From positions 930,001 to 994,000 of the forward strand of contig NZ_CP090641.1 in the NCBI RefSeq assembly GCF_029633825.1: a stretch of DNA of 64,000 nucleotides. The letters run 5' to 3'. The notes under the pieces are model-generated. The model made no database searches, had not been told where the DNA came from, and saw nothing but the letters and a program-made list of their open reading frames with translations. The stretch is from Burkholderia contaminans. GTDB taxonomy: Bacteria; Pseudomonadota; Gammaproteobacteria; Burkholderiales; Burkholderiaceae. The translations under genes were made by a program, and so were the position numbers. Positions 8,541-25,952 of this stretch are shown here, piece after piece. Positions within the stretch are counted from its first letter, which is position 1. Each line of letters opens with the position of its first letter.

Positions 8541-10193
8541 ATGCAAACCTCCCTTCCCTCCGTGGCGCCTGCCTTCCCGGCCGACGCGCCCGACTGGCCC
8601 GACGACTTCGCACGCCGCTACCGCGACGCAGGCTATTGGCAAGACACGACTTTCTTCGATGCGCTCGACGCGCAGGCGCAACGCGATCCCGATGCGCTCG
8701 CCGTCGTCGACGGCACCTGCCGGCTCAGCTATCGCGACCTGCTGGCGCGCATCCGCCAACTGGCGGGCGGCCTCGCGCGTCTCGGCCTAACGCGCGGCGA
8801 CGCGGTCGTCGTCCACCTGCCGAACGGCGCACGCTTCATCGAGACCTGCTTCGCGCTGTTCCAGCTCGGCGTGCGGCCGGTGCTCGCCCTTCCCGCTCAC
8901 CGGCACTACGAGATCGGCGCGTTCTGCCGCTTCGCCGGTGCGCGTGCGTATCTTGGCGCGGCGCAACTCGGCGAATTCGACTGCCGGCCGCTCGCGGTCG
9001 CGTTGCAGGCCGATTGCCCGACGCTCGAGCACATCGTGATGGCCGGCAACGAGCACGCGTTCACGCCGCTCGATGCGCTGTACGATGGCCCGCCGCTGCA
9101 CGAATGCGCCGCGCGCGCCGACGACATCGCATGCTTCCAGTTGTCGGGCGGCACCACCGGCACGCCGAAGCTGATCCCGCGCCGCCATTGCGAATACCTG
9201 TACAACGTGCGCGCGTGCAGCGCCGCGAGCGGCTTCGACGCCGACACCGTATATCTCGCCGCGCTGCCGATGGCGCACAACTTCACGCTGTGCTGCCCCG
9301 GCACGATCGGCGCGCTGCTCGCGGGCGGCCGCGTCATCACGACCGGGCGGCCCGAGCCCGAACAGAGCTTCGCGCTGATCACGCAGGAGCGCGTCACGCA
9401 TACCGCGCTCGTGCCGCCGCTCGCGCTGCTGTGGCTCGATGAACAGCCGCAACGGCTGGCCGACCTGTCGAGCCTGCGCGTGCTGCAGGTCGGCGGCGCG
9501 CGACTGATGGACCACGCGGCCACACGCGTGACGCCCGTGCTCGGCTGCCGGCTGCAGCAGGTGTTCGGCATGGCCGAAGGGCTCATCTGCTGCACGCGGC
9601 TCGACGATTCGCCTGAACGGATTGCGCAGACACAAGGCCGCCCAGTGTCGGACGGCGACGAAGTACGCATCGTCGACGATGCCGGCGAACCGGTCGCACC
9701 CGGCGAAATCGGCGAACTGCAGGTGCGCGGCCCGTACACGATCCGCGGCTACTACCGGCTCGCCGAGCAGAACGCGACCGCGTTCACGGCCGACGGCTTC
9801 TATCGCAGCGGCGACCGCGTGCGGCGCACCGCGGATGGCGACCTCGTCGTCGAAGGCCGCGACAAGGACCAGATCAATCGTGGCGGCGAGAAGGTCTCCG
9901 CCGAGGAAGTGGAGAACCTGTTGCTCGCGCATCCGCAAGTGCACGACGCGGCGGTGGTCGCGATGCCCGACCCGCTGCTCGGCGAGCGCACGTGCGCGTT
10001 CGTCGTCGCCCGCGCACCCGCGCCGTCCCGGCTGGTGCTGAAACGCTACCTGCGCGACTGCGGGCTCGCGGCGTTCAAGATTCCCGATCGCATCGAGTTC
10101 ATGCCGCGCTTCCCGGAAACCGGCATCGGCAAGACCAGCAAGAAATCGCTGCGCGACCTGCTGCGCCGCCAGTTGCAGGCAGCGGCCGCATGA
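8541..10193 (+). CDS. pchD: Salicylate-AMP ligase PchD
   Basis: Stand-alone adenylation enzyme of 550 residues that activates salicylate as salicyl-AMP and loads it onto the aryl carrier domain of PchE. Visible motifs: phosphate loop SGGTTGTPKLIPR (about residue 198), GMAEG, the hinge region GRDKDQINRGGEKVSAEEVE and a C-terminal lysine in GKTSKK. Length agrees with P. aeruginosa PchD (about 547) and the DhbE/EntE family. First gene of pchDCBA; its TGA overlaps the pchC ATG (ATGA). AAGGT seven bases ahead of the ATG is a moderate ribosome binding site. Confidence 0.95.
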   Translation: MQTSLPSVAPAFPADAPDWPDDFARRYRDAGYWQDTTFFDALDAQAQRDPDALAVVDGTCRLSYRDLLARIRQLAGGLARLGLTRGDAVVVHLPNGARFIETCFALFQLGVRPVLALPAHRHYEIGAFCRFAGARAYLGAAQLGEFDCRPLAVALQADCPTLEHIVMAGNEHAFTPLDALYDGPPLHECAARADDIACFQLSGGTTGTPKLIPRRHCEYLYNVRACSAASGFDADTVYLAALPMAHNFTLCCPGTIGALLAGGRVITTGRPEPEQSFALITQERVTHTALVPPLALLWLDEQPQRLADLSSLRVLQVGGARLMDHAATRVTPVLGCRLQQVFGMAEGLICCTRLDDSPERIAQTQGRPVSDGDEVRIVDDAGEPVAPGEIGELQVRGPYTIRGYYRLAEQNATAFTADGFYRSGDRVRRTADGDLVVEGRDKDQINRGGEKVSAEEVENLLLAHPQVHDAAVVAMPDPLLGERTCAFVVARAPAPSRLVLKRYLRDCGLAAFKIPDRIEFMPRFPETGIGKTSKKSLRDLLRRQLQAAAA

Positions 10194-17007: not shown

Positions 17008-17138
17008 ATGCATGCACGTACGTGTATGCCATCGCGCTGCCGGCCCGTTTCAGACCGGCAGCATCCTGCATCACTCACGCAAACGAGCCTGCTTGATCCG
17101 GTCGCCGGCAAGCAGGCTCGCGCCCAGGTCGGCGAGCC

Positions 17139-19886: not shown

Positions 19887-20294
19887 ATGTTCGATACCAA
19901 GGTAGCGCTGATCGTGCGCGACGATCTCGCCGCGTGGCAAAAACTCAACGTCGTCGCGTTTCTCGCGACGGGCGTCGCGGCCGAAGCGCCCGAAGCGCTC
20001 GGCGAGCCTTACGAGGATGCGTCGGGACGCCGCTACGGCCGCATGCTGGGCCAGCCGATACTGGTGTTCGCGGCCGACCTGAACGGCCTGCAGGCCGCGC
20101 ACCGGCAGGCGCTGTCGCGGGAACTCACGATCGTGCCCTACGTGCACGCGATGTTTTCGACCGGGCACGACGCGGCCAACCGTGAAGTGTTTCGCGCTGG
20201 CGACGCGGAAAATCTCGACTTCGTCGGGCTGGCGCTGCGCGGGCCGAAGAAGGCGGTCGACAAGGCCGTGAAGGGGTTGGCGTTGCATGCGTGA
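19887..20294 (+). CDS. DUF2000 family protein
   Basis: Soluble protein of 135 residues matching the DUF2000 family (N-terminal KVALIVRDDLAAWQKLNVVAFL, TGVA, YGRMLGQPILVF). Function unknown; the fold is related to peptidyl-tRNA hydrolase II. ACAAGGAGCACTC ahead of the ATG is a good ribosome binding site. Its last 45 codons are duplicated, with 8 base differences in 137, at 21513-21649 on the far side of a HEPN-MNT islet, so this gene is the insertion point of that islet. Confidence 0.85.
   Translation: MFDTKVALIVRDDLAAWQKLNVVAFLATGVAAEAPEALGEPYEDASGRRYGRMLGQPILVFAADLNGLQAAHRQALSRELTIVPYVHAMFSTGHDAANREVFRAGDAENLDFVGLALRGPKKAVDKAVKGLALHA
20158..20294 (+). repeat. Left copy of the 137-base direct repeat flanking the HEPN-MNT islet
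   Basis: 3' end of the intact DUF2000 gene, starting CGACCGGGCACGACGCGG. It matches 21513-21649 at 129 of 137 positions. Seven of eight changes are silent or in the stop codon; one changes Glu to Asp. The distance between copies is 1355 bases. Confidence 0.9.
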
Positions 20295-20331
20295 ACCGGC
20301 ACGTCAAATCGACGATTCAACACGATAACGG

Positions 20332-20778
20332 CTATTGCGCGTGCAGCAACTCCGGCTTGTTCCCGTCCATCCACGCCTTTACATCAATCAGGAGCGCCGA
20401 CGCACTATCGAAACACTCGCGAACCGCCGACGCCTGAACCACATCCCCGGAGTAATCGGACAGATTGCGCTGCTTGCGCAGCGCGTCGAGTACGATCATG
20501 CGCTCAACCGGCAAGCCGATTGTCTGTGGAAGCGTCTGGATCGCCGTCTGGTGGTGCCCCGGCCGACTCGTCAATGTACGAAATCCGTTCGCGTGCAACG
20601 CCAGCATGGCGAGTTGCATGATCGCCTTATAAGCCGCATCAAAGCGGTTTTCGTTGCTCAATGCTGCGAGTTGCGCATCCGCCAAATTTCGTTCCGCTGC
20701 GGCCAGCAGGCGCATCGCTTGTTCTCGGTCCGGCCGGACCGCATCGAGACTAACGCCGAGCAAGTTCTGCAAGGTCAT
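20332..20778 (-). CDS. HEPN-domain protein, partner of an MNT nucleotidyltransferase
   Basis: Helical protein of 148 residues resembling HEPN proteins paired with minimal nucleotidyltransferases. Near residue 105 it carries RKQRNLSDYSGD, close to the HEPN RNase signature RX4-6H, but the histidine is replaced, so catalytic activity is doubtful. The start is the ATG at 20778; the frame begins four codons earlier at a TTG. It overlaps the MNT gene by 29 bases, indicating coupling. In the related HEPN/MNT toxin-antitoxin type HEPN is an RNase that MNT inhibits by AMPylation; whether that holds here is inference. Confidence 0.7.
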   Translation of the reverse strand: MTLQNLLGVSLDAVRPDREQAMRLLAAAERNLADAQLAALSNENRFDAAYKAIMQLAMLALHANGFRTLTSRPGHHQTAIQTLPQTIGLPVERMIVLDALRKQRNLSDYSGDVVQASAVRECFDSASALLIDVKAWMDGNKPELLHAQ

Positions 20779-21349
20779 GGTCGCTACCAATCAAGAAAAT
20801 CTTGGGTTTTCCAAGCACGTCCCGCAAAAAGGCATCCTGCCCGGCAACGCCGTCGCGAAACTCGTCCGGGGACAGCACCTTGGGATTGATATCCCGCCCC
20901 AATGTCGCCTGTGCGTCGTAAAGCAGCCGGACCACCGTTGCAAAACCAACCGAGCCGATCACCATCACATCGACGTCACTGTCCGCCGTCTCCTGACCAC
21001 GCGCGACGGAGCCGAACACGAACGCCACACTGATTTCCTCGGCGCAGGGCAACAACGCGTCGGACAGCACATCCCCCATACCCGAGGTCTTTCGCATGAT
21101 CGAAGCGAGTTCCTCGAAAATGGGACAACTTCGATTCGCGCGATAACGCACCTGATTGCCTTGCCGGTCCCGGCTCAGGATGCCGGCTTCGGCCAGCTTG
21201 CTCAGTTCCTTGTGCAGCGTACCGGGCGTCGTGCCCGTCAAACGGGCGATCTCGCGGACATGCAACGCCTGGTCGGGCCTCAACAGGAGCAGGCCCAACG
21301 CGCGGCGCCGATAGTCACTAAACAGGGTCGAGGCAATGGATCGTAGCAT
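20750..21349 (-). CDS. Winged-helix MNT nucleotidyltransferase
   Basis: Protein of 199 residues with two parts. The N-terminal winged helix (about 10-75, REIARLTGTTPGTLHKELSKL and a wing AGILSRDRQGNQVRYRAN) is a DNA-binding domain. The C-terminal minimal nucleotidyltransferase domain has GSVARGQETADSDVDVMVIG, matching GSxxxGxxxxxSDxDxxV with both metal-binding aspartates. This fusion suggests an enzyme that also represses its own operon; inverted repeats of GTAGC/GCTAC lie immediately upstream. First gene of the two-gene islet. Substrate unknown; AMP transfer to the HEPN partner is the family precedent. Confidence 0.75.
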   Translation of the reverse strand: MLRSIASTLFSDYRRRALGLLLLRPDQALHVREIARLTGTTPGTLHKELSKLAEAGILSRDRQGNQVRYRANRSCPIFEELASIMRKTSGMGDVLSDALLPCAEEISVAFVFGSVARGQETADSDVDVMVIGSVGFATVVRLLYDAQATLGRDINPKVLSPDEFRDGVAGQDAFLRDVLGKPKIFLIGSDHDLAELARR

Positions 21350-21355
21350 GATTGA

Positions 21356-21473
21356 CTACGATTGTAGCTCAAATGGCTACAAGGCATAGTCCGAGTCGCC
21401 GATTCTGCATCGACTTGAGTGGATTACCTGAATGTAGCCAATTTAACTACGATCGAAGCAAATCTAGCTACAT
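21356..21473. promoter_or_regulatory. Cluster of GTAGC/GCTAC inverted repeats upstream of the MNT gene
   Basis: Three overlapping palindromes: CTACGATTGTAG (21356-21367), TTGTAGC-N7-GCTACAA (21362-21382) and ATGTAGC-N28-GCTACAT (21432-21473). The first begins 7 bases from the MNT start codon. The region is AT-rich compared with its surroundings. They look like operators for the winged-helix domain of the MNT protein. Confidence 0.6.
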
Positions 21474-21512
21474 ACTTACTCCGCTCAGCAAGCAGCCCGC
21501 CATGTCACAGCG

Positions 21513-21649
21513 CGACCGGGCACGACGCGGCCAATCGTGACGTGTTTCGCGCCGGCGACGCGGAAAATCTCGACTTCGTCGGACTGGCGTTGCGCGGACC
21601 GAAGAAGGCGGTCGACAAGGCGGTGAAGGGGTTGGCGTTGCATGCGTAA
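21513..21649 (+). pseudogene. Truncated 3' copy of the DUF2000 gene
   Basis: Encodes the last 45 residues of DUF2000, from TGHDAANR to the terminal KGLALHA, with no 5' part. It differs from the intact gene by 8 bases and ends in TAA instead of TGA. The mostly silent differences show that both copies spent time as functional genes, so the duplicate came from a diverged relative rather than a recent local duplication. It marks the right boundary of the islet. Confidence 0.85.
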
Positions 21650-21679
21650 ACATTCGTCAAGCCGCCCCGGCGGGCAGCG

Positions 21680-22030
21680 TCAGCGATGCGCGAGCACGTT
21701 GACCAGCTTGCCGAACGGGTCACGCACATAGAACCGCCGCACGCCCCACGGCTCGTCGACCGGCCCGTATTCGACCGGGATCCCGGCCACATGTACGCGT
21801 GCGAGCGCTTCATCGACGTCGTCGACCTCGATCGACAGGTCGGGCGTCGGCGTGCCCGATCCGCCCTGCGACGCGAAGCTGATCTGCACGTCCATCCGCT
21901 CGGCATTGCCGTAGGTCGCGATCCAGCCGTGGTCCATCAGCAGGTCGAGGCCGAAGATCCGTTGATAGAAGCACTTCGCGTCGTCGACTGATCGGGTGTC
22001 GACATTGGCGACGATCCGTTTGACTTTCAT
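21680..22030 (-). CDS. VOC (glyoxalase/bleomycin-resistance fold) family protein
   Basis: Single VOC domain of 116 residues: RIVANVDTRSVDDAKCFYQ, then DLSIEVDDVDEALARVHVAGI and WGVRRFYVRDPFGKLVNVL. A conserved acidic residue near the end (E/D of the metal site) is not obvious, so enzymatic class is uncertain. Such proteins include glyoxalases, dioxygenases and antibiotic-binding proteins. Monocistronic, transcribed away from the EamA gene's start region on the same strand with about 66 bases between. Confidence 0.8.
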   Translation of the reverse strand: MKVKRIVANVDTRSVDDAKCFYQRIFGLDLLMDHGWIATYGNAERMDVQISFASQGGSGTPTPDLSIEVDDVDEALARVHVAGIPVEYGPVDEPWGVRRFYVRDPFGKLVNVLAHR

Positions 22031-23033: not shown

Positions 23034-23411
23034 TCAGAAAGTTGCCGGGGACAGGCGCGGGTCCGCCAGATCCCCGGGGCGAATCGGTTCGAGCCCGAGG
23101 CGGTGATACTGCAGTTCGGCGTCGTCCCGGAGCGCGCGCTGCAGCGCCAGCCGCTCGCTCAACTTGCCGATCGCTTCGCGCAACGAACCGTTGCCGTCGC
23201 GGTCCGCGCACAGCGCGGGGCTCCGCACGCCCAGCTCGTTCAGGTTGCGCATCAGCGAAAACACCTCGCGCCCGGCTTCCTTTCTCCTCGCGTCATCGTC
23301 GCTGCGCTTGAGCGTCGAATACTTTTCGTGATTCTCGACCGTCCATACCGACTCGGCCTTCAACTTCCTGTCCCGCACCAATGCATCTACAACGAAATCG
23401 TTGATCGACAT
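23034..23411 (-). CDS. Unrecognised soluble protein
   Basis: A 125-residue, charged, probably helical protein with no family I recognise. It begins MSINDFVVDALVRDRKLKAE, and GGGAACG lies seven bases before the ATG at 23411. The frame extends to 23504, but the extra sequence is arginine-rich and lacks a ribosome binding site. No signal peptide, cysteine cluster or membrane segment. It is 13 bases upstream of the EamA transporter on the same strand, so the two may be cotranscribed. Confidence 0.55.
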   Translation of the reverse strand: MSINDFVVDALVRDRKLKAESVWTVENHEKYSTLKRSDDDARRKEAGREVFSLMRNLNELGVRSPALCADRDGNGSLREAIGKLSERLALQRALRDDAELQYHRLGLEPIRPGDLADPRLSPATF

Positions 23412-23543
23412 GAATCGTTCCCCGGATACGTGCAACGCGCGACCGGCTGCCTGCCGTTGTCTGCCTGTTGACCGAGAATATGGGATGCTCAATAATTCCG
23501 TCAATCGACATTACCTGAATCACTGATTCGGAAAAACCAAATC

Positions 23544-24477: not shown

Positions 24478-25178
<701 letters not shown>

Positions 25179-25179
<1 letters not shown>

Positions 25180-25952
25180 CACTCTTCCCCCAGATACGCC
25201 TTGATCACGCGCGGGTCGTTGCGGACCGCTTCCGGCGTGCCGATCACGATCGGCCGGCCGTGCTCCATCACGAGGATGCGGTCGGACACGCCCATCACGA
25301 GGCTCATGTCGTGTTCGATCAGCAGCACCGATACGCCGAACTCGCGGCGCAGCCTGTCGATCAGGTGCTGCAGCTCGATCTTCTCCTGCGGGTTGAGGCC
25401 GGCTGCCGGCTCGTCGAGCATCAGCAAGCGCGGCTCGGTGATCATGCAGCGCGCGATCTCCAGACGCCGCTGATGCCCGTACGACAACGTGCCCGCCGGC
25501 CGGTTGGCAACCGATGTCAGCCCCATCCGGTCGAGCCACACGGCCGCGCGTTCGAGCGCTTCCTTCTCGGCACGGCGATACGCGGGGGTCGAGAACAGGC
25601 CGGGCAGCAGCCCCGCCTTCACCTTGCGGTGCTGCGCGACGAGCAGGTTCTCGACGACGGTCAGCGACTTGAACAGGCGGATGTTCTGGAACGTCCGCAC
25701 GAGGCCCTTCAACGCGATCTTGTGGCTCGGCAGCCCGCCAATCGCGTGGCCGTCGAGGACGACGTCGCCGCCGGTCGGCTTGTAGAAGCCGCCGACGCAG
25801 TTGAACACCGTGGTCTTGCCCGCGCCGTTCGGCCCGATGATCGCGAACACTTCATCGCGACGCACGTCGAAATCGATCCCGTCCACCGCGAGCAACCCGC
25901 CGAAGCGCATCTGCAGCCCGGCGACCTTCAACAGTTCCGTATTCGCGCTCAT
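25179..25952 (-). CDS. livG: Branched-chain amino acid ABC transporter ATPase LivG
   Basis: ATP-binding subunit of 257 residues. Walker [10 protein letters not shown] near 42, signature [15 protein letters not shown] near 150, Walker [14 protein letters not shown] and H-loop LIEHDM. The alternative start 18 codons upstream lies in livM; the ATG at 25952 overlaps the livM stop (ATGA) and fits the family ([13 protein letters not shown]). Works with LivF. Confidence 0.93.

Follow-up and report, generated by a model that had tools for sequence, protein, structure and literature searches.

One interval within the window (the whole stretch of 64,000 nucleotides analysed here) preserves base-level footprints that bear on how small defence or toxin-antitoxin cassettes move when they carry no recombinase. 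These footprints are a common non-homologous junction, a displaced native gene end, two other arrangements with copied gene ends and the scars of loss, and they make a route by a single crossover testable. At the locus, a two-gene HEPN-MNT pair lies between the 3' end of an intact DUF2000 gene and a second copy of that end. This arrangement, described in an earlier note made from the sequence alone, was confirmed by repeat comparison within the window, which found 20158-20296 repeated at 21513-21651 (139 nt, 94% identity, 1355 apart). A window-wide repeat scan returned the DUF2000 tail repeat and two further repeats, at 73% and 70%. The features of the interval are listed below.

17034-17137, reverse strand: partial livF copy next to the SDR gene, covering 3' end and terminator (104 nt, 73%, E = 3.5e-12)
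19887-20294, forward strand: intact DUF2000 gene, the anchor gene (PF09391, E = 2.5e-44)
20158-20294, forward strand: the duplicated 3' end of the intact DUF2000 gene (repeat and tail comparison)
20295-20331, no strand: spacer from the DUF2000 stop to the HEPN stop (alignment of islets)
20332-20790, reverse strand: HEPN-fold protein, PADLOC PDC-M05B (E = 5e-72; model and fold match)
20750-21349, reverse strand: wHTH-MNT nucleotidyltransferase, PADLOC PDC-M05A (E = 1.3e-81; GSX10DXD)
21343-21472, no strand: presumed operators, two pairs of imperfect GTAGC..GCTAC palindromes (palindrome search)
21473-21512, no strand: spacer up to the insertion junction, which is common to five islets and the G022 and G043 scars (by eye)
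21513-21649, forward strand: duplicate of the DUF2000 tail, sited where DUF2000 natively adjoins VOC (repeat, alignments and tail comparison)
21680-22030, reverse strand: VOC/glyoxalase-like gene, right neighbour of DUF2000 at many empty sites (domain match and gene maps)
24478-25473, reverse strand: livF-like ABC ATPase gene, 5' limit approximate (gene maps of relatives)

The last gene is taken to be livF-like; it marks the right-hand limit of the variable interval and adjoins the pair in several of the relatives. An open frame of 76 codons (21419-21649) begins among the operators and runs in frame through the tail copy; that it encodes a conserved product is made less likely by amino acid changes in G049 and a frameshift in G055. 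Further right, the frame at 23034-23504 has in many relatives two matches about 1.6 kb apart, and no gap in others, for example G043, G001, G053 and G041.

Both products are recognised as a known type of pair, since the PDC-M05A and PDC-M05B models match adjacent, overlapping open reading frames in PADLOC. The smaller protein has a predicted HEPN fold, from model and fold match, and most of 29 aligned relatives start at an in-frame ATG near 20778. It gave no Pfam HEPN match of its own, and a weak match appeared in 2 of 30 relatives. The RX4HXY motif of type VII class I HEPN proteins occurs in none of the 30 aligned HEPN-type proteins; they conserve RKQR, one Asp without exception and one Tyr almost without exception. 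The larger protein has an N-terminal winged-helix-like part (domain search) and a single match, at residue 113, to the GSX10DXD motif of type VII class I MNT proteins. In the PDB, the search by sequence gave the MNT protein a single weak HTH hit, and the one hit of the HEPN profile was irrelevant. Four palindromes (21343-21359, 21362-21382, 21433-21452 and 21455-21472) lie over and upstream of the MNT start. The segment 21350-21512 holds six GTAGC-type half sites against a mean of 0.30 per 163-nt tile, and is one of only two tiles in 392 with three or more. We presume that the palindromes are operators and that the nucleotidyltransferase is both antitoxin and autoregulator; it would modify and restrain the HEPN protein and repress its own promoter. 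The pair is probably a toxin-antitoxin or abortive-defence module of PDC-M05 type, with presumed toxicity and modification. Passages of two publications describe PDC-M05 as a nucleotidyltransferase plus HEPN pair (PMC12988326) and report higher expression of PDC-M05A when B. cenocepacia K56-2 is infected by phage (PMC12584637).

We searched 65 genomes of the genus and fetched regions for 40 of the 64 others, giving 41 loci with the window. DNA matching the locus was present in 49/65 genomes and a DUF2000 protein match, weak in some, in 45/65. The MNT protein was matched in 19/65, closely in 12 (86% or more) and only distantly in the remaining seven (38% or less). Full islets occur in five of the 65 (the window, G049, G008, G056 and G055), and three more genomes retain islet scars that lack the pair: operators and tail in G022, operators and the first bases of the tail in G043, and in G006 a 36-nt HEPN piece with operators, without a tail. 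Elsewhere the pair stands beside livF with no copied end adjoining (G058, G031, G028, G029 and G047) or with copied pieces adjoining (G033 and G034); beyond all these, 26 of the 41 loci lack it. The pair and duplicate are therefore not, as they would be under simple vertical descent, present in all relatives; their occurrence is patchy. All 12 close relatives of the pair nonetheless lie beside livF or between DUF2000 and livF. Half sites of GTAGC type persist beside livF in 9 of 32 gaps, three in each of six gaps and one or two in the other three (one in G039, two in G036 and G019), the last being numbers that chance could produce by count alone. Carriage of the close relatives on plasmids or phages was considered and rejected: MNT relatives appeared in 16 plasmid records, each under 60% identity, and in one phage record at 28%.

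Several neighbouring arrangements were recorded on the way. In G047 (L040) the pair sits between an 86-nt remnant of a LysR 3' end and livF, in a locus without DUF2000. About 8.8 kb of other genes lies between DUF2000 and VOC in G033 (L038 3757-12536) and about 7.7 kb in G032 (L070 5149-12865); of eight ORFs scanned there, six gave matches, to AraC-type, Lnb_N and clostripain families in G033 and to HhH-GPD, Ada-type and Oxygenase-NA in G032. Many loci also contain repeats of about 105 nt, spaced some 707 apart, in and next to livF; these were set aside by judgement as paralogy of ABC genes.

Where the islet joined the chromosome can be read from its right-hand border. In alignments inspected by eye, the DUF2000 tail is entered at the same aligned base in the five islets and in the G022 and G043 scars, the first tail bases being changed in G055. 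Empty sites with a single 3' end, which the earlier note had proposed to look for, do exist, and they run from tail through a short spacer to VOC in the same order as at the second tail. Because of this continuity the second tail, rather than the intact gene's own end, occupies the native DUF2000-VOC position, and the simplest reading is that the insertion was anchored in the DUF2000 tail. The HEPN-side half of the 20295-20331 spacer resembles, by eye, the VOC-HEPN spacer of G034. A junction shared by five islets and two scars implies that the insertion is old, and most simply it would represent a single event. Identity of the pair to that of the window is 91-94%, similar to the 88-96% of VOC and the DUF2000 5' part.

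An old insertion must be reconciled with a tail copy that is still so similar to its parent gene. The duplicate had been attributed to a related strain or species, and a rival explanation follows from this: the copy and the islet would have been imported together, and recently, from a related species, in the manner of a target-restoring element but with no integrase. We compared the copies with 37 intact tails, leaving out G034, G047, G017 and G061, which lack a full gene. Identity of copy to own gene is 94.2% in the window, 94.9% in both G008 and G056, 88.1% in G022, 78.8% in G049 and 77.2% in G055. The own gene is the nearest of all 37 in four of the six (window, G008, G056 and G022; in the window the next best, G043, reaches 92.0%), and is not the nearest in G049 and G055. 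Homogenisation, not recent import, accounts for the identity, since four of six copies are nearest their own DUF2000 gene. A bias towards silent differences would also suit an import: these make up 7/8 differences in the window, 6/6 in G008, 2/4 in G056, 16/28 in G049, 13/29 in G055 and 6/12 in G022, where 0.31 is expected, with an excess above chance in the window, G008 and G049 (P = 0.003 for G049). The silent bias in the window indicates that until not long ago the copy worked as a 3' end. In the window, G008 and G049, neutral decay of a copy of the own gene would not by itself account for such a bias. Exchange of the islet region between species, seen in the G056 tract described below, is a further point on the side of import. 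Against it stand the junction common to seven genomes, which makes the insertion old, and the window copy's proximity to its own gene among the 37 tails. On these two grounds recent import was rejected as the source of the copy, the attribution to a related strain or species is not supported, and we consider this rival quite improbable.

Topology tests give a more detailed picture of the copies. A single clade of all six was rejected (AU p 0.003), as was the set of four joining G000, G008 and G056 with G022 (AU p 0.007). The set of three formed by G000, G008 and G056 was not rejected (AU p 0.146), although its three constituent pairs were (0.025, 0.004 and 0.042), and none of four tests forcing one copy together with the long-branch G049 and G055 copies led to rejection. 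No state private to a copy and its own gene was found in the six pairs, such shared private states being what would prove conversion. We infer that the copies have been refreshed from functional alleles of the same lineage, either within the genome or from conspecifics; a tail allele from another strain of the same lineage would be compatible with these data. The wider warning is that high identity between gene-end repeats can reflect later homogenisation, and so neither dates an insertion nor reveals its source.

The islet has also travelled with its flanks. G056 has a second AraC gene and DUF2000 5' parts that match G008 at 95-99% and G005 at 84-91%, and its pair is G008-like, while VOC and EamA are closer to G005/G037 (92-97%) than to G008 (88-92%). 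SDR and AraC1 are likewise 94-96% identical to G005/G037 against 87-90% to G049 or G000, G008 giving no value here. A foreign tract thus extends into the flanks of G056; its left end lies close to the second AraC gene and its right end ahead of VOC/EamA. The intact tail of G056 is nearer to G049 (94.2%) than to G008 (90.5%), so the imported tract is itself mosaic. In G055 the likeness to G008, G026 and G049 reaches early VOC and has its right end there, by eye. Trees were built from 40 rows (the window and 39 other loci, without G053), with rows under 85% coverage dropped, which kept 19 to 37 rows for host genes and 12 for the pair. In topologies taken without their support values, the DUF2000 5' and pair trees place G055 and G056 with G008, whereas the rpo-region tree does not. 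From the mosaic tracts and this disagreement between trees it follows that the islet was exchanged between species by recombination in the flanks. The earlier proposal that the islet moved by homologous recombination through its own DUF2000 tail therefore survives in part: tail anchoring remains the simplest account of the insertion and exchange through the flanks is supported by G056 and G055, but the argument about the donor does not hold.

Copied gene ends adjoin the pair in two other arrangements. The order in G033 is LysR, livF 3' end, pair, livF, the copied end measuring 243 nt by match to the window and 279 nt at 91% by self-match; its outer copy has a junction of LysR-livF type and its inner spacer resembles that of G031 by eye. 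The window islet at DUF2000 is the mirror image of this arrangement. In G034 the order is VOC, pair, livF 3' fragment, truncated DUF2000, VOC. The copied stretches are of unequal length (137 nt; 243-279 nt; about 115-150 nt of livF plus DUF2000 and VOC), and their breakpoints fall within genes, at bases that differ. Cargo of another kind between paired DUF2000 ends, which the earlier note had suggested looking for, was found in none of the 41 loci; the other copied ends are pieces of livF, DUF2000 and VOC. Such pieces also lie away from the pair, as a VOC piece in G031 and livF pieces beside SDR, which means that a copied gene end is not peculiar to the HEPN-MNT module. The former, 79-82 nt, lies left of the second AraC gene of G031 (L039, about 8961-9040). 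Through the copy at 17034-17137 the SDR-to-LysR block of the window is flanked by two livF ends, and similar livF-end copies occur in G018, G017, G006 and G030. It is possible that the window copy is an older footprint of the same kind as the islet.

These arrangements bear on two other rivals. The interval may have been duplicated in tandem in place, for example as DUF2000-HEPN-MNT, and then reduced by partial losses to one full gene, one pair and one tail, an end state identical to that of a single crossover. Deletions are indeed common in the interval, as the pair-less scars of G022, G043 and G006 and the half-site remnants in 9/32 gaps attest, and G034 still has two VOC genes and a truncated DUF2000. 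We regard this history as unlikely all the same: the window islet, G033 and G034 would each require two or more events, in none of the 41 loci does the interval hold a second close copy of the pair, and G033 suggests, by eye, different haplotypes for the native-neighbour and cargo-side copies. The second rival is a mobile element that placed the pair with a recombinase of its own and later lost the recombinase gene. The occurrence of the pair at several places in one interval and the plasmid records of its more distant MNT relatives (16, each under 60%) would fit such an element. The variable copied lengths and internal breakpoints would not, and a search of the whole window found no tRNA; nine ORFs scanned in G032, G033 and G034 gave no integrase match (two had no match of any kind), and all 12 close MNT relatives stay near livF. 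A vanished recombinase is accordingly a highly improbable explanation. Within the islet itself, the earlier statement that no integrase is present was borne out, its two genes matching PDC-M05A and PDC-M05B and no recombinase being matched in Pfam at E 0.01.

On balance, we lean towards the islet being an integrase-free insertion, anchored in the DUF2000 tail and made by one crossover, followed by homogenisation, flank exchange and loss. The islet would be a resident module of PDC-M05 type; where the relatives examined have the pair without tail copies, it most often stands beside livF. In some ancestor of a cepacia-complex subclade, the pair and its operators, together with the 3' end of a DUF2000 gene, may have formed a fragment whose two ends were joined, and this self-closed fragment would then have recombined once, through its tail, with the DUF2000 gene already present. 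Such an exchange would yield, from left to right, an intact gene, the cargo and a truncated second tail at the native VOC junction, with no need of an integrase. The circle and its single crossover, the donor arrangement and the direction of events are the conjectural parts of this route; in the loci examined, no DUF2000 gene followed directly by the pair, the postulated donor form, turned up apart from the islet itself. Later, both tails would have been homogenised with functional alleles of the same lineage, and the islet would have passed between species by ordinary flank recombination and been lost several times. A single crossover of a self-closed fragment would explain the window, G033 and G034 in one step each, G034 requiring a later loss on its left side. 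There is an experimental precedent in E. coli, where, according to passages of PMC3240628, DNA homologous at one end produced partial duplications of the anchor in 56/60 clones tested; these measured 109-950 bp in 14 sequenced clones and were ascribed to circularisation and a single crossover.

More speculatively, and with considerable doubt, host gene 3' ends may serve as reusable docking points at which self-closed toxin-antitoxin or defence fragments integrate by one crossover without an integrase. The copied tails would then act as built-in repeats through which a cassette is cut out without a scar and exchanged again and again. On this view the window, with its nested copies of livF and DUF2000 tails, would record two rounds, and small defence cassettes that lack mobility genes might move in this way generally.

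No title or abstract in the literature searched for earlier descriptions names the HEPN-MNT islet, and its closest parallels are each partial. Integrative elements that restore their target possess an integrase or site-specific recombinase, which the islet lacks, and place different cargo at the same attachment site, which none of the 41 loci displays. Hotspots turned over by recombination of flanking genes are alike in their variable interval between conserved flanks, the exchange of cargo with those flanks, the mosaic flanks (as in G056) and the absence of a visible mobility gene; that model involves double recombination at both flanks, whereas here the truncated anchor copies suggest one-sided events. 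Homology-facilitated illegitimate recombination, as presented in passages of PMC3240628, shares one homologous end, one non-homologous join and a partial anchor duplication, but was observed in a plasmid assay in E. coli, while the islet is reconstructed from natural genomes in which the copies were apparently homogenised later. Displaced effector-immunity modules of Vibrio type VI clusters, in the portions of PMC5361080 consulted, similarly have a conserved upstream anchor with an old 3' part pushed downstream; what is displaced there are immunity genes and effector ends whose alleles within one genome do not cluster, in contrast to a host gene tail that is nearest its own gene in 4/6 cases. 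The type VII HepT/MntA system, from passages of PMC7641770, likewise combines a HEPN fold with an adjacent GSX10DXD nucleotidyltransferase; its defining traits include a toxic HEPN protein that AMP transfer neutralises. The HepT motif RX4HXY is missing here, as it is for class II of that source, and RKQR, Asp and Tyr are conserved; the islet MNT protein differs from the MntA partner by its N-terminal winged-helix-like part. The nearest likeness in the proteins is to PDC-M05 as it appears in passages of PMC12584637 and PMC12988326, whose PADLOC models match both members of the pair.
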